From: Gammaproteobacteria bacterium
GTDB lineage: Bacteria; Pseudomonadota; Gammaproteobacteria; Steroidobacterales; Steroidobacteraceae
Direction of reading: 5' to 3'
Length of the DNA stretch: 64,000 bases
Assembly (NCBI GenBank): GCA_018970145.1
Contig: JAGWWY010000002.1
Span: 372,001-436,000 of the forward strand
Shown here: one piece after another, positions 1,492 through 61,461 of the stretch
Numbering within the stretch: the stretch's first letter is position 1
How the letters are laid out: each line of letters begins with the position of its first letter
Notes under the pieces: generated by a model
The model's input: only the letters and a program-made list of their open reading frames with translations
What the model was told of the DNA's origin: nothing
The model's database searches: none
Translations under genes and position numbers: made by a program

Positions 1492-2844
1492 TCACACCCC
1501 CTTCAGCTCGTGCGAGCGCGCGGGAGCCGGCCGCTCTGGCGCTTTGCGCTGCGCGGGACCGAGTGAGTCGATACGCTCTTGCGCACGTCGCAAGCGCTCA
1601 GCGTCCTCGTTACCACGCGCAGTCGCTGACTCGAGTCGCGGTGTCAAAAAAATCACGACCTCGGACTCTTCTTGTCGTTGACCTTTGACGCCGAATAATC
1701 GACCCACCGCCGGCAATCGAGAAACCCCTGGCAAACCCTCGGTATCTCGACTGCGCTGTCGTTGCGTCAGCCCTGCGATCACGACCGTATCGCCATGACG
1801 CAAATCGATATCGGTGCTCGATCGGCGCTTCAGCAACCCAGGGATCCCCGCGACCCGCTGGGCGTTGTCGACCTGACTGATCTCCGTCTCGACACGGAGC
1901 ATCACGACCCCCGGCGTATCGACCACCGGCTTGATATCGAGGATCACGCCATACTCACGAAACTCGACATCGGTCGATCCGACCGAGTTGACCACCGGCA
2001 CCGGGATTTCTCCGCCGGCGACAAAACGCGCGTGGCCGCCACTGCGACAACTCAAGCGCGGCTCCGCAACGGTCAATGCCTCACCGGACTGCTCCAGCAT
2101 TCGCAGGCGAGACTCCAGCGTGGTGGCAATCCCGAGATACGCCTTGGCCGTTGTGTGCCCCGGAATACCGTCGAAAGCCTCGGGCGCGGCCGGCGTATCG
2201 GGGCCGACGAAGCGGAAGCGGTCGTTCGTGACGAAATCGGCAATGACACCGGCTGAGGGCCCGGCGATATCATCACGCCAGCGAATACCGAGCTCGCGAA
2301 ACTGACCTTGACGAAACTCGACGATTTTGACGTCGACATGAACCAGGGTCTCTGCCGACGGTTTACTCGTCAGATCAACCAGCGTCTCCGGGAATAATTT
2401 GACCACCTCCGAGACTCGCGCGCGAGGACGCGCATCGACGATTTCACCCTCAAGCAGAATGCGACCGCCTGCAACGCGCGCACTGACGCCGGGTACGTCG
2501 GCCAGCAAGCGCCGAATCTCGAGTAAGCTTGCCTGTAAATCGCTCGCAGTGACTCGGACGTCGAGCCGACGCTGACCCCCGTCACGCAACCAAAGTTGCA
2601 CCACCGTATCGCCCGGGGCGTGACCGATCAACACGAACTGCCCCGCGCTCACCAGAGTAGCCGAGACCAACTTGCCATTACCGACAGCGATACGAGTCGC
2701 CTCGGCATCGAGTACGCGGCTGTCACCCACGAACAGATCGATACGTGCCGGTATCGCCGCACTTGACTGCACTACGCAAGCAAGCAGCACGATGAGTGCC
2801 ATCCAGCCGGCCCTGATTCGAAATAGCGTATTTTCTTTGATCAT
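1492..2844 (-). CDS. cpaC: Tad pilus outer-membrane secretin CpaC/RcpA
   Basis: Forms the outer-membrane channel for the Flp pilus. It has a signal peptide (hydrophobic ALIVLLACVVQSSAA), then a pilus/BON-like N-terminal region (residues about 30-150), then a secretin core with EIPVPVVNSVG and EFREYGVILDIKP and the C-terminal RHGDTVVIAGL / SEVVIFLTPRL signature. The ATG at 2844 has GAGGAAG six bases upstream; an in-frame GTG at 2859 is the alternative. It lies 55 bases after cpaB, and its stop is one base from the ATPase start, so it is in the same operon. Confidence 0.9.
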   Translation of the reverse strand: MIKENTLFRIRAGWMALIVLLACVVQSSAAIPARIDLFVGDSRVLDAEATRIAVGNGKLVSATLVSAGQFVLIGHAPGDTVVQLWLRDGGQRRLDVRVTASDLQASLLEIRRLLADVPGVSARVAGGRILLEGEIVDARPRARVSEVVKLFPETLVDLTSKPSAETLVHVDVKIVEFRQGQFRELGIRWRDDIAGPSAGVIADFVTNDRFRFVGPDTPAAPEAFDGIPGHTTAKAYLGIATTLESRLRMLEQSGEALTVAEPRLSCRSGGHARFVAGGEIPVPVVNSVGSTDVEFREYGVILDIKPVVDTPGVVMLRVETEISQVDNAQRVAGIPGLLKRRSSTDIDLRHGDTVVIAGLTQRQRSRDTEGLPGVSRLPAVGRLFGVKGQRQEESEVVIFLTPRLESATARGNEDAERLRRAQERIDSLGPAQRKAPERPAPARSHELKGV

Positions 2845-2899
2845 GTCGAGCTTCCTCACGATTCTCTCGCGCAGTCTTCATCGGCGACACGCCGCGTGG

Positions 2900-3805
2900 T
2901 CATGGTCGATCGGAAAACCAGTGCTGACTCTTTGCGAGCTCCCGATCGCCACCCACCCAAAGCTCGACACTGCGTCCCGTGCGCAGCGTCTTCGCCGAGC
3001 CAGATACTGTGACGGACTTTTTCCCGTCAGAGCGTTCGCACGCCGGCGAATCCGAGACCCGAGGTTTGAGCGAAACCGGAGTTGCATCACCCTGACCGCG
3101 CAGCAGCGGTATCAGGTCACCGACTCGTAGCGCGAGCGCCAACTGCTGAGCCTGTTCAGGCGTTACATCCAACGTCATCGTGGAGTAGGAAATACCGAGC
3201 TCCGCGCGCCGCTGCAGCAGTTCGTCGGCGCCGCGCGAGGGATCGACCTGATGCGCGCCGGTCGCCAGCACTTTGAGCGACTCGAGCAGCGGCTTCACCA
3301 TCACACATCGCACACTCCCTTCGGTCGTTTCCTCCGCCAATAACAAATCCACCTGATCGCCGGGTCGGACCAAGCCCGCTTGCGAGCTGACTTCGTCGAC
3401 CGGCACCGTCACCGCTCGAGTTCCGTTCAATAAGCGACTCGCGAGCGCCTGCCCGCCGTGACCCGACAAATGGGTCGTACTCAATGCATCTCCAGCAGCG
3501 AGCGAAATGACCAACTGTTGTCCGATAACCGTCGCGATCTCATCGACAGGCAAGGTTCCGCCGGGCAAGTAAGCAGCGGGCATCTCGCGCTTTGCCAGAT
3601 CTTCCACGCTCAGAATTTTGCCGGCCGGTAACGCCGCTGCGGCGACCACCACAGGCGTTGGCCGATATCGCTCACGCCAGTCGACTTCGATCTTGGTTCG
3701 CTCCTGCTTCAAATAGCGTTGTGCGCCCACAAATGCGATACCGGCGAAGATCAGCGCCACGATGAAGGTCACTACCGTTGAGTTGAGAGTTGTCGGCCAC
3801 TTCAT
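2900..3805 (-). CDS. cpaB: Flp pilus assembly protein CpaB/RcpC
   Basis: Periplasmic, membrane-anchored partner of the secretin. An N-terminal transmembrane helix (VTFIVALIFAGIAFVGAQ) is followed by an SAF domain (VVVAAAALPAGKILSVEDL) and a CpaB/RcpC C-terminal domain (RAVTVPVDEVSSQAGLVRPGDQVDLLL). The ATG at 3805 has GAGGAG ten bases upstream; the frame stays open to 3997, but that stretch overlaps the upstream gene. Length (301 aa) is normal for the family. Confidence 0.88.
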   Translation of the reverse strand: MKWPTTLNSTVVTFIVALIFAGIAFVGAQRYLKQERTKIEVDWRERYRPTPVVVAAAALPAGKILSVEDLAKREMPAAYLPGGTLPVDEIATVIGQQLVISLAAGDALSTTHLSGHGGQALASRLLNGTRAVTVPVDEVSSQAGLVRPGDQVDLLLAEETTEGSVRCVMVKPLLESLKVLATGAHQVDPSRGADELLQRRAELGISYSTMTLDVTPEQAQQLALALRVGDLIPLLRGQGDATPVSLKPRVSDSPACERSDGKKSVTVSGSAKTLRTGRSVELWVGGDRELAKSQHWFSDRP

Positions 3806-3834
3806 GTCATCGTTACTCCTCGGGTACACCCTAT

Positions 3835-4068
3835 TCAAATCACCGCCAACCACCAAAGAAAAATGCGGATCCGATGTACGATCGCATCGAGAAGCTGCTG
3901 CGCCGGCGACGGATTCCCCACCCACGGGACGACCAAGGCGAGCACCAAGACGGCGCAAATCCACAGGTACTCGAGCATCGTCTGACCACGATGACACCGC
4001 GGCTCGACTGCCCGGCTAACCTTGGTCTTGACGGATATTTTCCTGACGGGTATTTCCTTGACCGACAT
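3835..4068 (-). CDS. small Flp-type prepilin/pseudopilin (77 aa)
   Basis: Residues 28-34 read G-QTMLEY. This matches the Flp prepilin processing motif G/XXXXEY (cleavage after Gly, Glu at +5, Tyr at +6). The leader is positively charged (28 aa) and the mature part would be only 49 aa: a hydrophobic helix (LWICAVLVLALVVPWV) and a second short hydrophobic tail (IFLWWLAVI). SD GGAG lies nine bases before the ATG, and the start sits two bases after the stop of the upstream gene. A second pilin or minor pseudopilin is the likely role; no closer family is recognised. Confidence 0.7.
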   Translation of the reverse strand: MSVKEIPVRKISVKTKVSRAVEPRCHRGQTMLEYLWICAVLVLALVVPWVGNPSPAQQLLDAIVHRIRIFLWWLAVI

Positions 4069-4069
4069 T

Positions 4070-4723
4070 TCATTGCTCCGCGCCGTCGAGCTGAATCACG
4101 ATGCGCGTGCCGGTCTTGGATGCCGCAACGGCAGCTTGCAGCTGCCGCGTGCCGCGCAGACTCATGAGGACGCCGTGGTCCGCGGAATCGAGACGCGTCG
4201 CGCTCCAACCTGCTCGGATCAGAGAGGCACGCAGTTGACGAACGACCGTTGGAACCGTTTGATGACTGCGGAAAAGCAGGGTCATGGGCGCGCTGCGCGA
4301 CAGACCGTGACGAACGGAGGAAATGCGCTGCCAATCCGTCGGCACCACGAATGGGGCGGCGCCCCATGCTTCGATCGGCTCACGGAGGTCGCGGATCGCA
4401 TATTCGACTCGCGTGCTCCCGGGTAGCCTGCCCCGTTGCAAACTGACCGTCTCGTGATAGGCCTGACGCTGACGACCGAGAATGATGCGGCCATCGCGAA
4501 GTTGCATCGTCAGCGGCGCCGGCCCGCTTTCAGCCCAACGACGTGTCAGCCCTTCGGCGAGCGTCTCGGGCTCACCCAACTCGGTAGTCGAACGCAAACG
4601 CAGCGGCACACCATTGACGACGACGGTCTCGGATCGTGTTGCGGCACCGACTGGATCAGCGAGACTGCAGACGGCGAGAAGGGTCCCGATCAACCAGGCG
4701 TCCACGGGTCGAGATGTCAGCAT
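4070..4723 (-). CDS. unknown exported protein in the Tad locus
   Basis: A 217-aa protein with a probable Sec signal peptide (hydrophobic LIGTLLAVCSLADPVGAA) and no domain I recognise. The rest is soluble, arginine-rich and strand-prone (VVVNGVPLRLRSTTELG near the mature N terminus). It overlaps the TadE-like gene by 7 bases and is immediately followed by the small prepilin gene, so it should be made with the pilus machinery and probably acts in the periplasm. A possible pilotin or minor assembly factor; function is inference. Confidence 0.7.
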   Translation of the reverse strand: MLTSRPVDAWLIGTLLAVCSLADPVGAATRSETVVVNGVPLRLRSTTELGEPETLAEGLTRRWAESGPAPLTMQLRDGRIILGRQRQAYHETVSLQRGRLPGSTRVEYAIRDLREPIEAWGAAPFVVPTDWQRISSVRHGLSRSAPMTLLFRSHQTVPTVVRQLRASLIRAGWSATRLDSADHGVLMSLRGTRQLQAAVAASKTGTRIVIQLDGAEQ

Positions 4724-5481
4724 GGTCTTGGCCTCGCGTCACCACCCTGACTGCCCTCCGTGCGATCGGAGGGCACGATATCGACGTCAAGGCGACCGGG
4801 GCAAAAGCGCTCGAATGCCGGCTCAATGATCGCGATGACGGGTCGAACCGCATCGAAGACCGTGGTCGCCTCCGCGAGTCGCGCTTGAACGGTCATCCCA
4901 ATGACATGATCGCGGGTGTCAGTATCGCTGCGCGAAGACCATCCGTGATGCAGCGCGGCGAGCTGCTCGGTGAGCAGGATGGGCGTGTCAGTTTGTGCGG
5001 CGGCTAGAAAATCAGGTAATCGAAACGACCACTGCGCTCGCGCTTGGATGCCACTGGATGTCGGCAGACGGAAGTCGCCGCCAGTGACGATACCCGCCGG
5101 CAACAACGTGCTTTGGGTAATTTCGTGCAACTGCTTGGGCGAGGGTAACGGCTTTGCCTCCGTTAACTCCAGTTGCAAGCGTAACGAGCTCGGCATCCAC
5201 GGTGCATCGGCTGACATGTCGCCGTAGCGGCTGCGAGCGATCGCGGCGATCTCGGCCCTAGGTAGGGCTCCATCGGTCAGGTGTGACAGGATCACCGCAT
5301 GGCGCACCGACGAAATCGCCGCCTGTTGTGCCGCCAAGAGCTCGGCAAGAAACAATAAAGCGAACCATAGCGGAATCAGCCAAAAGAGAGCCACCATGGA
5401 CTCGACCAGTGCTTGTCCGCGTTGCGTAACCCGCGCAACGTGCGCTCGGATCAACGCCGTCACGGCGCCACCGCAAGCCAT
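4717..5481 (-). CDS. TadE-like pseudopilin
   Basis: The N terminus has the prepilin-type site RGQALVES followed by a hydrophobic helix (FWLIPLWFALLFLAELL), as in TadE/TadF minor pseudopilins (Gly then Glu at +5). The remaining 200 residues are predicted periplasmic. The ATG at 5481 overlaps tadG by 22 bases. A GTG at 5463 overlaps the tadG stop as GTGA and is an equally good start, giving a leader of typical length. It probably helps stabilise or initiate Flp pili. Confidence 0.75.
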   Translation of the reverse strand: MACGGAVTALIRAHVARVTQRGQALVESMVALFWLIPLWFALLFLAELLAAQQAAISSVRHAVILSHLTDGALPRAEIAAIARSRYGDMSADAPWMPSSLRLQLELTEAKPLPSPKQLHEITQSTLLPAGIVTGGDFRLPTSSGIQARAQWSFRLPDFLAAAQTDTPILLTEQLAALHHGWSSRSDTDTRDHVIGMTVQARLAEATTVFDAVRPVIAIIEPAFERFCPGRLDVDIVPSDRTEGSQGGDARPRPC

Positions 5482-6770
5482 GCTGGCGAGCCGTCGAGCG
5501 CCGCAAGGCGAACGCGTTCGTCGCTCGTGAGAGTGGCAAGGCGTGCCCTCCAAAAGGGGCTAAACAGACTTGCTCGTTCGCGCGCACCATCCAACCGAGG
5601 ATGCGGGCGCTCGAAGGACGTCGTGGCGGCCGATTCGGCGAACCAACGCGGCGCAGACCCTTCAAGATGCTGCTCGTGACCCGTCGGAGTCGGTACGCTC
5701 GCGAAGCCGAGCAGTGCTTTGGCCCCCCGACGCGCCGAATCGTCGAGTGCCACGCGCACGAGTATGCGCGGTGGCGCGAAACTATCGCGCTGTGCAGCAG
5801 AAAGATCATAGAGCGAAGGCAAACCGAGATAACCGACAGAGCGTCGAACGGAGCGATCCGCCAGACGACTCGCACGCGGATTGCGACGATAACTGTCACC
5901 GTGCTCGCCGCGACTGAAGGACGGTTGACCAGTTTCGGACCCGCCCCAGGCGATGGGTGTCCGCTCGCGGATCGAACCGAACAGGAGCCCTCGACGCGCA
6001 TGCAGCGACAGCGTGTCGAGGCCGCGCCAGTTATCGAAATCGACGAGCTCGGTACCGCCGCGTTTCTCGAACCGTACGATGCTCGTACCCAGTAACGGCG
6101 CGAGCGTGTACCGGCGATCACTGGAGAACCCGTCGAGTGAGCGATGCACCACATCGCGTTGCCGCCAACGAAAAGACCCGCCATAGAACGACGCGAAGCG
6201 CAGCCACTCGCTCGCCCAAACAGCCACCGCCGCTTCGCCGCCCGTGGATAAGCGATATCGCGAATCGGTCTGGCTAAGCGACTCGCGCAGTATCGCGGGA
6301 ACCACCGTGACTGTACCGAGGTGCATGACGCGTTGCGCCGCGGCGATATCGTGCGAGACGAGACTCGTCGTCGCTTCGAGTGTCATCAGACTCGGCTGTA
6401 GCACGGCATCCACGACGTGCCACAACCGCTGCAGTGTCATCATGGCGGTGTTCAGATACGGCACCCAGGCCGTCACCAACGCAGCACTAGGTAGTAGGCG
6501 AGTCATGTACGACGACCATGATCTCAAACTCACCGACTGCGCCAATGCAGCCTCGTTCGCGACAATCGCTCGATTGGTATAGGCATCGAAGTTCAAGGCC
6601 CGCGCTTGCCATACCGCCGCACTCAAGGCAGCCGCATCGGCGGCATTGGCGAGGCGCTGCTTTTCATTGACAGCCGACCCCGCCTCGGTCGTCCACCACA
6701 GCGCGCTCAAGAGCGCCCCGAGTAGAACGACGAGGACGAGTAACGACTGACCGTGTTGATGCGACGGCAT
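5460..6770 (-). CDS. TadG-like pilus locus protein
   Basis: A 436-aa protein starting MPSHQHGQSLLVL, with one N-terminal membrane helix and then a TadG-type stretch (NEKQRLANAADAAALSAAV), the region that defines TadG-like proteins. The leader keeps Gly-Gln but lacks the Glu at +5 seen in its neighbours, so processing by the prepilin peptidase is uncertain. No von Willebrand A domain is evident. The ATG at 6770 lies 22 bases after the flp stop; the frame is open to 6956, but that would overlap flp. Confidence 0.75.
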   Translation of the reverse strand: MPSHQHGQSLLVLVVLLGALLSALWWTTEAGSAVNEKQRLANAADAAALSAAVWQARALNFDAYTNRAIVANEAALAQSVSLRSWSSYMTRLLPSAALVTAWVPYLNTAMMTLQRLWHVVDAVLQPSLMTLEATTSLVSHDIAAAQRVMHLGTVTVVPAILRESLSQTDSRYRLSTGGEAAVAVWASEWLRFASFYGGSFRWRQRDVVHRSLDGFSSDRRYTLAPLLGTSIVRFEKRGGTELVDFDNWRGLDTLSLHARRGLLFGSIRERTPIAWGGSETGQPSFSRGEHGDSYRRNPRASRLADRSVRRSVGYLGLPSLYDLSAAQRDSFAPPRILVRVALDDSARRGAKALLGFASVPTPTGHEQHLEGSAPRWFAESAATTSFERPHPRLDGARERASLFSPFWRARLATLTSDERVRLAALDGSPAWLAVAP

Positions 6771-6792
6771 GAATGTCGGTCGATTCGCGCGC

Positions 6793-7047
6793 TTACTTTT
6801 CGAAATCCTTGAGCGACTTAGCGGTCGCCTGCTCATTGGCCTTGGTTCGACCGCCCGTGACCAGTTGGCGCCCGGTCGTGTTGCTCTCACCGGACAAGGC
6901 GACGGCGGCGACCGAGGTCTGACCACGCAGGACATCGCCGAACGCAGAGTAAACACCGATCGCCGCCACGGCGATCAAAGCGACGACGATGATGTACTCG
7001 GTCATGCCTTGACCCATGACCTTCGGCTGGATTGCGGACTGACGCAT
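6793..7047 (-). CDS. flp: Flp-family type IVb major prepilin
   Basis: An 84-aa prepilin: short leader MRQSAIQPKVMG, then QGMTEY (the G/XXXXEY motif), then one hydrophobic helix (IIVVALIAVAAIGVYSAF) and a 45-residue polar tail. The tail is longer than in classic 50-residue mature Flp pilins. A near-perfect SD (AAAGGAG) stands six bases before the ATG, the best ribosome site in this locus and fitting for an abundant structural subunit. First gene of the leftward operon. Confidence 0.85.
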   Translation of the reverse strand: MRQSAIQPKVMGQGMTEYIIVVALIAVAAIGVYSAFGDVLRGQTSVAAVALSGESNTTGRQLVTGGRTKANEQATAKSLKDFEK

Positions 7048-55798: not shown

Positions 55799-55965
55799 GG
55801 ACTCGCCGGCGCGCGTCGACACCGCTCGGAGCAATATTTCACGGTGTCCCAATTCTTCGCCCACGACTTACGCCAGACCATTTCTCGGTTGCAATGCGCA
55901 CAGAGTTTGCGTGGCAACGCGGCTTTGTTGCCGCGGAAGCTTTCTTTGGTCAACGATCTCGTCAA
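55795..55965 (-). CDS. DUF2256 small zinc-finger protein
   Basis: A 56-aa protein with CAHCNREMVWRKSW and WDTVKYCSERC, the DUF2256 pattern (two CXXC/CX3C-type pairs). The family is often next to CRY-DASH, as here. I prefer the TTG start at 55965, which overlaps the upstream stop as TTGA; an ATG at 56007 would overlap that gene by 46 bases. Confidence 0.82.
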   Translation of the reverse strand: MTRSLTKESFRGNKAALPRKLCAHCNREMVWRKSWAKNWDTVKYCSERCRRAPASP

Positions 55966-56840
55966 CGTCGGTCTGCCGCTGCCAAGACGCGCTGCGCTTT
56001 GATCCAATGCGGTCGATCGATGAGCTTGCCCTCGATACGCAGCGCCCCAACACCCGGTGCGGCATCGAAGGCTGCAATGATCTTACGGGCGTCATTGATC
56101 TCGGCTTCGGTCGGTGTAAACGCATCATGGATCGCTGCAACCTGCGCAGGATGGATCGCAAGCTTGCCGACATATCCCGCGCGGCGCGATTCACGCGCTC
56201 GAGTGCGCATGGCATCGAGGTCGCGGATCTCCGTATCGACGGTATCGATGCCAAGCACCCCGGCAGCGGCAGCGGCCGTGAGACACAACGAACTCGCCCA
56301 CACATACGGCGCTTCATACCGACCGCTCGCATCGCGGTTGCCGAGCGCACCCAAATCCAAAGCCAGATCCTCGGCACCCCAAGTCACGCCGAGCACACGA
56401 GGAGGCAACGACGCAAAGGTCGGCATGGCCAACAAGGCGCCCGCTGTCTCGGTGATCATCGGAATCACTCGAACCGCGCCGACCGGCAATCCGGATACCA
56501 CTTCGAGGGCCTCGAGCCAATGATCGAGCCGACGCACATCCTCACCGTGGCGCGCCTTCGGCAACATGATTCCATCAGGGCGTGCCGCAACCACAGCGGA
56601 CAGATCGGCTAAGGCGACGCTCCGGCCTGACTCGGTCGCATCGACCGGATTGATCCGAACCCACAGTGGCACGGACCGATTTGAGCGACGCAGGTAGTCG
56701 GTGATGTGGCCACGCGCCTCCGCACGACGTTCAGCCGCAACGGCATCCTCGAGATCGAAGATCACCGCATCAGCGCCACTTTTTTCGGCCTTTTCGAAGC
56801 GCTCGGGACGATCGCCCGGCACGAACAACATCGATCGCAT
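55962..56840 (-). CDS. HpcH/HpaI aldolase / CitE-like lyase
   Basis: A 292-aa TIM-barrel lyase with N-terminal RSMLFVPGDRPERFEKA, the FDLEDAV metal region and VTWGAEDLALDLG. It cleaves a beta-hydroxyacyl-CoA or thioester; possible substrates include malyl-CoA or citramalyl-CoA. It heads the operon that continues through the photolyase and lysine-catabolism genes. SD GGAG is 12 bases before the ATG. Confidence 0.85.
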   Translation of the reverse strand: MRSMLFVPGDRPERFEKAEKSGADAVIFDLEDAVAAERRAEARGHITDYLRRSNRSVPLWVRINPVDATESGRSVALADLSAVVAARPDGIMLPKARHGEDVRRLDHWLEALEVVSGLPVGAVRVIPMITETAGALLAMPTFASLPPRVLGVTWGAEDLALDLGALGNRDASGRYEAPYVWASSLCLTAAAAAGVLGIDTVDTEIRDLDAMRTRARESRRAGYVGKLAIHPAQVAAIHDAFTPTEAEINDARKIIAAFDAAPGVGALRIEGKLIDRPHWIKAQRVLAAADRR

Positions 56841-56905: not shown

Positions 56906-56919
56906 GGCAAGAACTTGCC
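56906..56919. promoter_or_regulatory. inverted repeat between citE-like gene and flagellin
   Basis: GGCAAG-AA-CTTGCC, two perfect 6-base arms, in the 203-base gap between the divergent genes and about 125 bases before the flagellin start. It looks like an operator for a dimeric regulator. No good sigma-28 or sigma-54 promoter was found nearby. Confidence 0.35.
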
Positions 56920-57043: not shown

Positions 57044-59941
57044 ATGCCTATCGTCATCAATACGAATCTGAATTCGATCACGGTCCAGCGCAGTCTCGAG
57101 ACGGTCAACCGTCAGCTCACCCAATCCATCCAGCGGCTCTCCTCGGGTCTGCGTATCAACAGCGCCCGGGATGATGCCTCTGGGCTCGTGATTGCGACGC
57201 GACTCACCTCGCAAATCCGCGGCCTCAACGCCGCGGTGCGCAACCTGAGCGACGGAATCTCTCTCGTGCAAACGGCCGAGGGTGGTATCAGCTCGATCAC
57301 CGACAACCTGCAACGCATCCGCGAACTCGCCGTGCAGTCGGCCAACATCACGCTCACCGATACCGAGCGCGCCGCACTGCAATCCGAGGTTGCACTCGCT
57401 CGCGAGGAGATCAGCCGCGTCGCGCAGCAAACGACCTTCAACGGTCGCATATTGCTCAACGGCAGCTTGGGCCCTGGCAACTTCGTCGCGGGCGCTAACA
57501 TCACCGATGTGCTGTCGTTCTCTGGCATCGAAGATCTGCGTGCCACTGCCCTAGGGTTCAATCAAACGACGGGCGCTCCGCCAACGCCGGTGGGTGAGGG
57601 TCCGGGTGGTGTACCCGGCTTCACGCGCACCAATCTGCCGTTGCTACCCACGGGCACGAGCGTTGCGCAAAGCATCACGGTGCTCGGTACCAACTACACC
57701 TTGGGCAGCTTTGTGCCAGGCGCGAAGGATCTGACCACGGCCATCAACGGGCTCGGGGTCGCGGGGCTCACCGCCTCGGTTGGCCCGAATAGCATTAACG
57801 GCACCACCAACAGTAGTTATCTCAACACCTTCGATCCCGAGGGTACCCTCACCCTCAACGGGGTCGAGATTGCTCTTGTGGGCTCACGCAGCAACAACCT
57901 GAGTCAAAACGTCACTGCGGCGGTAGCCGCGATCAATGCACGTTCGATCGACACGGGTGTTATCGCGACTAACGGCGTGTCACAAGGCAACGGTCTTGTC
58001 CTGACGGCCGCCGACGGTCGCAACCTGACGGTGTCTTTTGCAGCGACCGATATCAACGAAAATCGTGCGCCGATCGGTCCAGGTCCCGGCGGCGTGCCGG
58101 GCTTCATCGCGACCAACATCGATGTCGAAAGCGCAGCCACGGCAGGCGCACAGAACGTCAACGTGCTCGGTACCAACTACGCACTCGGCACATTCACGCG
58201 GGATGCGCGAACCCTGGCCGAAGCGATCAATAACGCCGAAATACCGGGCCTCTCGGCGAATGCCGAAGCCAACGTCTACGAAGGCGCCCAGAGCAGTTCG
58301 TATTTCAATTTCTTTGACCCCGAGGGCGTACTCACACTCAACCAAGTGGCGATCACGCTCACCGGTTTGAAATCAAATAGTCTCTCACAAAACGTCGATC
58401 TCGCCGTGGCCGCCATTAATGCCGTCTCCGGTCAGACCGGTGTCACAGCTTCAAATGGCACGGCCAACGGCGCCGGCATCATTCTGACGGCCGCCGACGG
58501 GCGTAATATCACCGTCGACTTTCAAGCGACCGACATCAACGCTGAGCAGACGGTCAGTGGCGCAGGTCCCAACGGATTACCCGGCTTCATCGCCAACGAC
58601 ATCGCCGTGGCAGGCTCGGCAACGGCGGTGGCTCAATCGGTCGAGGTGTTGGGCTCGAGCTATGCGCTCGGCACTTTCGCACCGAGCGCCAACAATCTCG
58701 CAAGCGCCATCAATGCCGCGGGAATCGCGGGGCTCACTGCAACCGCTAACGCGAACGTCGTGGAAGGCGAACAAGACTCGAGCTACTACCAGTACTACGC
58801 TCCGCAAGGGACGTTGACGATCAACGGTGTGGACATCGGGCTCTCGGCTAATAAAACGAGCAGCATGACTTCCAACATCGCGACCACCATCAACGCGATC
58901 AACCAAGTTTCGGCGCAAACCGGTGTTGTCGCGCAGAACGGTTTCTCGAGTGGCAAGGGCGTCGTGCTCACCGCAGCCGATGGCCGAACGATCACCGTCA
59001 CCTTCCAGGCGACCGATGTCGGTAACGCGTCGGCACCCGATTACTCAACAACCGCCGGCAATTTCGGTGTCGCGATCACCGGTGCAGCGGGCCAAACCGG
59101 CACAATCGACCTCGCCTATCTCGCGCCGGCCGGCGTGCTCTCGGGTGATGTCACTTTCAGTTCGAACACCGGCCTCACGCAAACCAACTTTGGTGTTGTC
59201 GGACAACTCGGCCCCGATACCGACCCCGCGCCGGATTTTGCCACCGTAGCGGGCAACTTCGGCTTGTCGAAGACGAGCGCTGCCGGTGTCGCTGGCTCCA
59301 TCTCGATCGCCTATGCGGCTCCCTCGGGCGTGATCAGTGGCTCCGTTCAATTCAACTCGGCGACCGGCCTCGGACAGACGGCCTTCAGCGTACAAGGCGA
59401 ACTGGGCCCGGACTCGGACCTCGCGCCCGACTACTTGAGTGTCGCCGGCAACTTTGGCATCACTACGACCGGTCCGAACGGCGTGTCGCCCGGCATCAAT
59501 ATCAGCTACGTCTCACCCAGTGGCATCTTGAGTGGCACCGTGGAACTGAGCGAATCAACCAATGTGAGCGATCGGATACTTCAGGTGGTTGGGTCGCTGC
59601 AAAGCCCGGATTTCCGCTCTGTCGCCAACATCGATATCTCGACGATTGCCGGCTCGAATCTCGCAATCCAGACCATCGATGGCGCGCTGCAATCCGTCAA
59701 TTCGACCCGCGCGCGATTGGGCGGTGTCTTGAACCGGCTCGACAGTGCCATCGACAACCTTCGCGTCGCCGAAGAAAATCAGATCGCCGCTCGCTCACGC
59801 ATCCTCGACGCCGACATCGCCGCCGAAACCGCCGCCCTCGCTAGAGCCCAAGTTCTGCAGGAATCAGGTATCGCACTGCTCGTACAAGCGAATGCCATTC
59901 CGAGGAACGTGGTCAACCTACTCCGCAGTAGCTATCTCTAG
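57044..59941 (+). CDS. fliC: giant repeat-containing flagellin (965 aa)
   Basis: Filament subunit secreted through the flagellar export apparatus. The conserved D0/D1 N terminus (1-160, VINTNLNSITVQRSLETV and SGLRINSARDDASGL) and C terminus (about 860-965, ending NVVNLLRSSYL) are typical. The middle has three 161-residue repeats (186-660) with Flagellin_IN-like motifs and three 65-residue repeats (664-853). It is about twice the usual length of 490 aa. SD GGAGG is eight bases before the ATG. No FliD, FliS or flagellar operon gene lies beside it. Confidence 0.95.
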   Translation: MPIVINTNLNSITVQRSLETVNRQLTQSIQRLSSGLRINSARDDASGLVIATRLTSQIRGLNAAVRNLSDGISLVQTAEGGISSITDNLQRIRELAVQSANITLTDTERAALQSEVALAREEISRVAQQTTFNGRILLNGSLGPGNFVAGANITDVLSFSGIEDLRATALGFNQTTGAPPTPVGEGPGGVPGFTRTNLPLLPTGTSVAQSITVLGTNYTLGSFVPGAKDLTTAINGLGVAGLTASVGPNSINGTTNSSYLNTFDPEGTLTLNGVEIALVGSRSNNLSQNVTAAVAAINARSIDTGVIATNGVSQGNGLVLTAADGRNLTVSFAATDINENRAPIGPGPGGVPGFIATNIDVESAATAGAQNVNVLGTNYALGTFTRDARTLAEAINNAEIPGLSANAEANVYEGAQSSSYFNFFDPEGVLTLNQVAITLTGLKSNSLSQNVDLAVAAINAVSGQTGVTASNGTANGAGIILTAADGRNITVDFQATDINAEQTVSGAGPNGLPGFIANDIAVAGSATAVAQSVEVLGSSYALGTFAPSANNLASAINAAGIAGLTATANANVVEGEQDSSYYQYYAPQGTLTINGVDIGLSANKTSSMTSNIATTINAINQVSAQTGVVAQNGFSSGKGVVLTAADGRTITVTFQATDVGNASAPDYSTTAGNFGVAITGAAGQTGTIDLAYLAPAGVLSGDVTFSSNTGLTQTNFGVVGQLGPDTDPAPDFATVAGNFGLSKTSAAGVAGSISIAYAAPSGVISGSVQFNSATGLGQTAFSVQGELGPDSDLAPDYLSVAGNFGITTTGPNGVSPGINISYVSPSGILSGTVELSESTNVSDRILQVVGSLQSPDFRSVANIDISTIAGSNLAIQTIDGALQSVNSTRARLGGVLNRLDSAIDNLRVAEENQIAARSRILDADIAAETAALARAQVLQESGIALLVQANAIPRNVVNLLRSSYL
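57599..59023 (+). repeat. flagellin repeat A, three units of 161 codons (483 bases)
   Basis: The string GPGGVPGF or GPNGLPGF starts at residues 186, 347 and 508, exactly 161 apart (units at 57599, 58082 and 58565). Each unit has LGTNY/LGSSY, an AIN helix, a PEGTLTLN-type strand, then AAIN and LTAADGR. The motif pair resembles Flagellin_IN. The reading frame is kept throughout. Confidence 0.9.
59033..59602 (+). repeat. flagellin repeat B, three units of 65 codons (195 bases)
   Basis: APDY/APDF starts at residues 664, 729 and 794, exactly 65 apart (units at 59033, 59228 and 59423). Each has VAGNFG, an AY.APSG turn and LGPDSD-type spacers, and looks strand-rich. A fourth start, SPDFRSVAN at residue 854, merges with the conserved C-terminal domain. 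Confidence 0.88.
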
Positions 59942-60003: not shown

Positions 60004-61461
60004 ATGTCGGAGTGTTCGTTCGATGTGTTGATTATTGGCGCCGGTCTGACCGGTGTCGGCTCGGCGGCCGATTTGCGACGCCGGTTCCCGCAGAAGCGCA
60101 TCGCCGTTCTCGAAGCCCGTGAGCGCATGGGCGGCACGTGGGATCTCTTTCGTTATCCTGGCATCCGCTCGGACTCGGACATGTACACCCTCGGCTATCG
60201 CGCACGCCCTTGGCGCGAGCCGCGTTCGATCGTCGATGGCCCTTCCATTCGACGGTACATCGAAGAGACCGCCGCAGAGACCGGCGTAGACCGACTCGTT
60301 CGCTTTGGCGTGCGTGCCGTCTCGGCCGCTTGGTCATCGCCGAGGGCCCGATGGACCGTGCAGATCGCGCATCGGGACGGCACCCGCTCCACCCTCGAGA
60401 CACGATTCCTGCATTTTTGTAGCGGCTACTACAGTTACGCAGAAGGTCATCGCCCGCAGTGGGAGGGCGAAGCGGATTTTCAGGGCGATATCGTTCACCC
60501 GCAATTCTGGCCAGAGAACTACGACTACCGCGGAAAGAAAATAATTGTGATCGGTAGTGGTGCCACTGCCGTGACACTCGTCCCCTCAATGGCCGATCAG
60601 GCCGCACACGTGACCCTACTGCAACGATCACCCACGTACATCGCCACGCAGCCCGCCGAGGATCCACTCGCGAAGTGGCTCACACCTTGGCTGCCAAAGC
60701 GCCTCGCCTATTGGATCGTGCGTTGGAAATGCATCCTCGCGGGAATGTTCTTCTACTCGCTCGCCAAATCGCGACCGAAGCCCTTCAAGAGGAGCGTTAT
60801 CAATCTGGCGCGCAAAGAATTACCCGCCGATTTCGATATCGCCAAACATCTCACGCCCGGCTATAACCCTTGGGATCAGCGCCTCTGCGCGGTCCCTGAT
60901 GGAGATCTTTTCAAGGCAATCTCAGCGGGCAAGGTCTCGATGGTGACGGATCACATTCGACGCTTTGTACCCAACGGTATCGAACTGCAATCGGGTGAAG
61001 TGCTCGAAGCCGATCTCGTCATCACCGCCACAGGGCTCAAGATCGAAGCCTTAGGTGGCGCTGAACTGCGCGTCGATGAGAAACCGGTCAGGCTCGAGGA
61101 GATGATGGTGTATCGCGGCGCTCTTTTTAGCGGAGTGCCAAATCTCGTCTACACGTTCGGCTATACCAACGCTTCGTGGACTTTGCGGGCTGATCTGATC
61201 TCGCACTATCTCGGCCGCCTGCTGCGCCATATGGACAAACACGGCTACGACAGCGTCGTTGCCGAACGCGACCCTACGGTCAGCGAGCAACCCTTCCTCG
61301 ATTTCACGTCGGGCTATGTATTGCGCGCCCTGCCCTCGCTGCCAAAACAAGGCGATCGCTTTCCGTGGCGCATCCATCAAAACTATTTGCGTGATGTACA
61401 TGTCACGCGCTTCTCACCGCTCGTCGATCCCCACCTGCATTTCGCAAAGGCATCCTCATGA
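60004..61461 (+). CDS. flavin-containing (Baeyer-Villiger type) monooxygenase
   Basis: FAD/NADPH monooxygenase, 485 aa. FAD site VLIIGAGLTGVGSAADL, the Baeyer-Villiger fingerprint FQGDIVHPQFWP (FXGXXXHXXXWP), and the NADPH site IIVIGSGATAVTLVP. It would insert oxygen next to a ketone to give an ester or lactone. First gene of a likely operon, with overlapping downstream genes; substrate unknown. Confidence 0.9.
   Translation: MSECSFDVLIIGAGLTGVGSAADLRRRFPQKRIAVLEARERMGGTWDLFRYPGIRSDSDMYTLGYRARPWREPRSIVDGPSIRRYIEETAAETGVDRLVRFGVRAVSAAWSSPRARWTVQIAHRDGTRSTLETRFLHFCSGYYSYAEGHRPQWEGEADFQGDIVHPQFWPENYDYRGKKIIVIGSGATAVTLVPSMADQAAHVTLLQRSPTYIATQPAEDPLAKWLTPWLPKRLAYWIVRWKCILAGMFFYSLAKSRPKPFKRSVINLARKELPADFDIAKHLTPGYNPWDQRLCAVPDGDLFKAISAGKVSMVTDHIRRFVPNGIELQSGEVLEADLVITATGLKIEALGGAELRVDEKPVRLEEMMVYRGALFSGVPNLVYTFGYTNASWTLRADLISHYLGRLLRHMDKHGYDSVVAERDPTVSEQPFLDFTSGYVLRALPSLPKQGDRFPWRIHQNYLRDVHVTRFSPLVDPHLHFAKASS

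Follow-up and report, generated by a model that had tools for sequence, protein, structure and literature searches.

The window (the whole 64,000-nucleotide stretch of DNA analysed), which derives from a freshwater bacterium, contains a gene for a large flagellin, flanked by one CitE-like and one flavin monooxygenase-like gene (Table 1). The predicted protein is devoid of Cys and Trp and has a pI of 4.3. Two Pfam matches exceeded the curated cut-offs, namely Flagellin_N at residues 5-141 (2.2e-39, 135 bits) and Flagellin_C at residues 875-960 (8.2e-20, 71 bits), whereas Flagellin_IN gave a sub-threshold match only (residues 451-485). The 965-aa protein has the terminal regions of a bacterial flagellin (FliC), and the normal D0/D1 ends described in the initial annotation are borne out by the translation and by Pfam.

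Table 1. Positions of the genes, protein segments and other features of the large flagellin locus within the window.
Feature	Position	Strand	Description
CitE-like gene	55962..56840	-	Citrate-lyase-like (HpcH/CitE type), divergent; named by eye from sequence; not flagellar
Dyad GGCAAG-AA-CTTGCC	56906..56919		Upstream of flagellin
Large flagellin gene	57044..59941	+	965 aa plus stop (translation)
N-terminal D0/D1	57044..57568	+	Residues 1-175; Pfam Flagellin_N
Unit A1	57599..58081	+	Residues 186-346; putative D3 and outgoing half of D2 (fold by analogy with the A3+B1 model)
Unit A2	58082..58564	+	Residues 347-507
Unit A3	58565..59023	+	Residues 508-660; B1 directly after, like ordinary flagellins
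Unit B1	59033..59227	+	Residues 664-728; putative returning half of D2
Unit B2	59228..59422	+	Residues 729-793
Unit B3	59423..59617	+	Residues 794-858; short linker, then D1
C-terminal D1/D0 and stop	59618..59941	+	Residues 859-965; Pfam Flagellin_C
Flavin monooxygenase-like gene	60004..61461	+	Downstream; named by eye

In most other species of the genus (at least ten), the CitE-like and monooxygenase-like genes lie next to each other, usually 110-190 bp apart, with no flagellin between them. The flagellin is therefore either additional at this site or has been lost from it elsewhere. The dyad upstream of the flagellin has a related counterpart (TGGCA-N6-TGCCA) at the same place in G008, a species of the same genus, and is missing in G018 and G013, where the CitE/monooxygenase gap is shorter; it may serve the divergent neighbour. 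Consensus scans for sigma-28 and sigma-54 promoters revealed no site conserved in both the window genome (G000) and G008, and the window yielded no hit in scans for Rfam families and tRNAs. Genes resembling those of Tad/Flp pilus assembly (CpaC-, CpaB- and TadE/TadG-like, judged by eye) are present at 1492-6956 of the window, on the minus strand.

The middle of the protein consists of two blocks of repeats, for which the unit starts given previously (186/347/508 and 664/729/794) were confirmed. The period of 161 residues assigned to the A block is also correct. However, the third A unit spans only about 153-156 residues, roughly 6 short of the period, and runs into B1, which it would overlap by five residues at full length. 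Comparison of the protein with itself yielded, for the A block (residues 186-668), an identity peak at an offset of 161 (175/322 positions; mean 28 and maximum 47 in 2000 shuffles) and, for the B block, a peak at an offset of 65 (64/130 positions; mean 11 and maximum 26 in the same number of shuffles). These values lie far above those of the shuffles, and the repeats are not due to chance. The units are nevertheless diverged, with pairwise identities of 47-55% (protein) and 55-58% (DNA) among the A units, and 38-60% and 45-58%, respectively, among the B units. Agreement between units at fourfold silent sites is 36-48%, compared with 34% expected by chance, and the repeats are old. Tandem Repeats Finder reported no array in this region, because the copies are too diverged. 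An assembly artefact is not a likely source of the repeats, since exact matches between units extend to 18 bp at most and the same type of gene is found in three other species.

The order of the units is AAABBB, with equal numbers of A and B. The A ends are 161 residues apart, and no B-like segment follows A1 or A2 (B-like scores of 27 and 24, versus 263 after A3). A different arrangement was observed in several flagellins of 687-729 aa with two A units, identified in a sample of the class (Gammaproteobacteria). These have the order A-B-A-B, with A ends 197-217 residues apart, and in four of the six testable cases homology was seen between the segments that follow the two A units. The block order AAABBB, rather than ABABAB, is the real peculiarity of the large flagellin.

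In a structure prediction based on 34 homologues (pLDDT 83, pTM 0.76), the A3+B1 fragment forms a single confident unit matching known flagellin outer domains. The highest structural scores were obtained with the outer regions of Helicobacter pylori FlaB and FlaA (Z 10.4 and 10.2), followed by the Pseudomonas aeruginosa filament (8sug; Z 9.4, 175 aligned residues, 3.8 A), the P. aeruginosa D2/D3 crystal structure (8erm; Z 9.2, 160 aligned, 3.5 A) and Campylobacter jejuni flagellin (Z 8.3). The matches are continuous (model residues 5-222), and the predicted module corresponds end to end to D2/D3 of the PAO1 type. Profile searches against solved structures produced, for A, only the Legionella flagellin (6b5b, 1e-7, residues 271-412) and, for B, nothing credible. 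In PAO1 the chain forms one half of D2, then D3 (residues 243-353), and then returns to complete D2 (PMC10256154). The B strands (model residues 181-214, pLDDT 92-95) fall within the returning half of this PAO1-type D2. A and B are two halves of one domain type, a relationship missed by the initial annotation, and in the model B constitutes the returning half of the domain begun by A. Such a B unit should need an A partner, which would explain the equal numbers of the two units.

Among 396 genomes sampled from the order (all of the genomes compared are draft assemblies), close proteins with multiple A units were found only in the window species and in three others of its genus, G023 (a Lake Erken assembly), G004 (a Steroidobacteraceae assembly) and G008, which have the same type of locus. 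G023 and G004 encode 3A+3B, the latter in a gene split over two contigs, and G008 encodes 4A+4B in 1186 residues. The ordinary flagellins of the genus (477-545 aa) contain one A followed by one B, as counted in G005, G011 and G019. An independent, family-wide search for B showed that the B count equals the A count in every complete flagellin counted. A degenerate case, the 837-aa flagellin of G009 (L027:5830-8751), contains a single B and about four A-like motifs that are diverged or partial, and represents a different route to a larger middle. Among the seven genome-contig matches, three (L065, L066 and L067) are flagellins with other middles and L064 has no clear frame; the plasmid records searched contained no relative of the large flagellin.

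The window protein and its G023 counterpart are 92% identical and have the same number and order of units. Since dN/dS is 0.048 (dN 0.042) at a dS of 0.88, the large flagellin is, by this estimate, under strong purifying selection, and no relaxation was detected in the units scored (all but A1 and B3). These results run against the proposal, made in the initial annotation, that recombination changes the repeat number and thereby generates surface variation. The difference in copy number between G000 and G008 would agree with such a phase-variable protein, as would the ends of contigs at this locus (L026, L032, L033, L111): those of G023 and G004 terminate within the gene, and that of G006 terminates next to it, just upstream of the neighbouring monooxygenase. 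These breaks could reflect population variation or chance. A recombining surface protein would be expected to have near-identical repeats whose copy number changes among close relatives, whereas here the units share at most 18 bp of exact sequence, their silent sites are near saturation, and unit number and order have stayed constant between the window and G023. Such an array is therefore highly improbable. Over longer time, the repeat number does change between species.

The flagellar cluster of the genome is located elsewhere, on contig C20 (the large flagellin is at C2:429044-431938). It includes four small flagellins of 291-344 aa (C20:136000-140000) with FliD and FliS-type neighbours. A further flagellin of approximately 557 aa, beside a flgA-like gene, is distributed over the end of C20 (L029; C20:156368-156872) and C11 (L030; C11:4409-5758), the two contig ends overlapping by about 45 residues within it. 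In a tree of the D0/D1 regions, the large flagellin groups with that of G008 (100/97). Their neighbour is a flagellin of G018 with one module (100/98), and the large flagellin falls in the clade that is encoded alongside a second FlhA gene in G006. Six to seven further flagellins of G006, of about 286-328 aa and some of them nearly identical, are arrayed in a single cluster (L112). Only one FlhA was found in the window genome (about 95% complete assembly), of the type common to all (99% to C17 of G006). Because the flagellin clade is associated with the second FlhA in G006, the large flagellin appears to be an orphan of a second flagellar type, although a second cluster may be missing from an assembly of this completeness. 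It is presumably expressed and exported by the single remaining apparatus.

Considering the unit order together with the predicted module, we regard it as probable that the AAABBB flagellin comprises three stacked, nested D2/D3 modules, i.e. that a single outer domain of the PAO1 type has been multiplied to three copies. In each module, A would run outward, forming D2 as far as its midpoint and then D3, and B would run back, completing D2. The chain would leave D1, pass outward through A1, A2 and A3, turn at the A3-B1 junction and come back through B1, B2 and B3 to D1, and we infer one-to-one nested pairs of (i) A3 with B1, (ii) A2 with B2 and (iii) A1 with B3. Only short linkers separate D1 from A1, A3 from B1 and B3 from D1, so that, if the modules are rigid, A1+B3 would lie near D1 and the core, and A3+B1 at the far tip. 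Three similar domains stacked outward in each subunit would render the outer layer of the filament thicker or ridged. The enlarged outer domain suggested earlier for this filament is supported as probable by the duplicated outer domain and the normal D0/D1 ends.

Two other ways of folding the same chain have to be considered. The A and B units might be independent small domains, forming six beads on a string with no A-B co-folding. This would be in keeping with the full-length prediction (965 aa, from five sequences; overall pLDDT 43), in which the A cores reach 70-80 and B is low, and with the similarity of model residues 64-181 to folds that occur by themselves in cap and phage tail proteins. 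However, a confident prediction of B was obtained only in combination with A, D2 of PAO1 is completed by the returning segment (PMC10256154), and A and B are equally numerous in every complete case, which makes independent beads unlikely. The pairing might also be parallel (A1-B1, A2-B2, A3-B3), with crossing connections. A correlation of unit distances, seen in both G008 and the window, is in its favour: in G008, parallel numbering (A_i with B_i) fits with r 0.79 and reversed numbering with r 0.00, a difference that is not significant (n=6, p 0.12). With the short B3-D1 and A3-B1 linkers, a chain paired in this way would have to cross the entire tower twice, and we consider parallel pairing a quite unlikely fold.

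The origin of the order is a separate matter. If copies of AB were inserted at the A/B junction, AAABBB would arise in one step per module, and outer domains would grow by recursive nesting, A(A(A B)B)B, into a self-similar tower with three modules here and four elsewhere. We find this mode of growth fairly likely. The unit distances favour parallel numbering, which is evidence against the joint addition of new A and B units in the form of a nested AB copy. Alternatively, the two blocks may have grown by separate tandem duplications, of 483 bp for A and 195 bp for B. Such duplications produce AA and BB directly, and the closest pairs in G008 are A2/A3 (63%) and B2/B3 (50%); the better fit of parallel numbering points the same way. 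They would, however, require two matched events for each added module, passing through an unpaired state, and coincidence or selection would have to account in part for the equal numbers in the 3/3 and 4/4 species. We give separate duplications a chance slightly short of even; the unit distances lean towards this two-step origin. The alternative concerns the origin only, and the nested folding may apply in either case. In the tree of A units, A3 of G000 groups with A4 of G008 (92/88), the last A predating the split of the two lineages, and A2 and A3 of G008 are sisters (90/87). Long branches prevail in the tree of B units, which served purely as supporting evidence.

Duplication of the outer domain is already known from giant flagellins, as are the 30-nm filaments that these build (PMC6248924); the window protein differs in its AAABBB order with equal numbers of A and B. 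No description of this order was found in the literature searched (papers available without subscription). The published term applies to flagellins longer than 1000 aa (PMC6248924). The window protein, called giant in the initial annotation, falls just below this limit at 965 aa and qualifies as large (over 800 aa), while its relative from G008 exceeds it. The resemblance to the giant flagellins lies in the size, the duplicated outer domain and the occurrence in gammaproteobacteria. Those of Bermanella marisrubri and Oleibacter marinus carry two consecutive DE regions in tandem (PMC6248924), whereas the window protein has three A parts (four in G008) followed by the matching B parts. It lacks the head-to-tail arrangement of DE regions, and no DX insert was seen in it. 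DE regions have also been reported for Pseudomonas, Campylobacter and Helicobacter, and in fold the A+B module matches the outer domains of flagellins from these genera.

The authors of that study weighed a continuous tandem against a split, nested folding of the duplicated domains, favoured the former, and left the question open; the split domain scheme was proposed for the known giant flagellins but disfavoured (PMC6248924, Fig 3B). The AAABBB order looks like the split nested case "written" in the sequence, as the order alone separates the continuous (ABAB) from the split nested (AAABBB) case. With members of one, three and four modules in one genus, the open folding question becomes directly testable, and the genus offers a natural series for relating outer-domain length to filament thickness and swimming. 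The large flagellin may also serve as a naturally occurring case in which a domain withstands being inserted into itself several times.

Among the other known systems, FliC of the PAO1 type (8erm, 8sug; PMC10256154) aligns end to end with one module (Z 9.2-9.4); it has a single module, and the window flagellin three. The two-module flagellins of gammaproteobacteria (L098, L100, L101, L103 and L104) share with the window protein the repeated A and differ from it in their alternating order. In flagellins of the Salmonella and Escherichia coli H7 types (D2, D3, D4), the chain likewise runs out and back through outer domains that are stacked or inserted in one another, and D2/D3 of the H7 type is unlike that of Salmonella (PMC8931119). 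Whereas the window flagellin repeats its units, the outer domains of these proteins have not been described as mutual copies.
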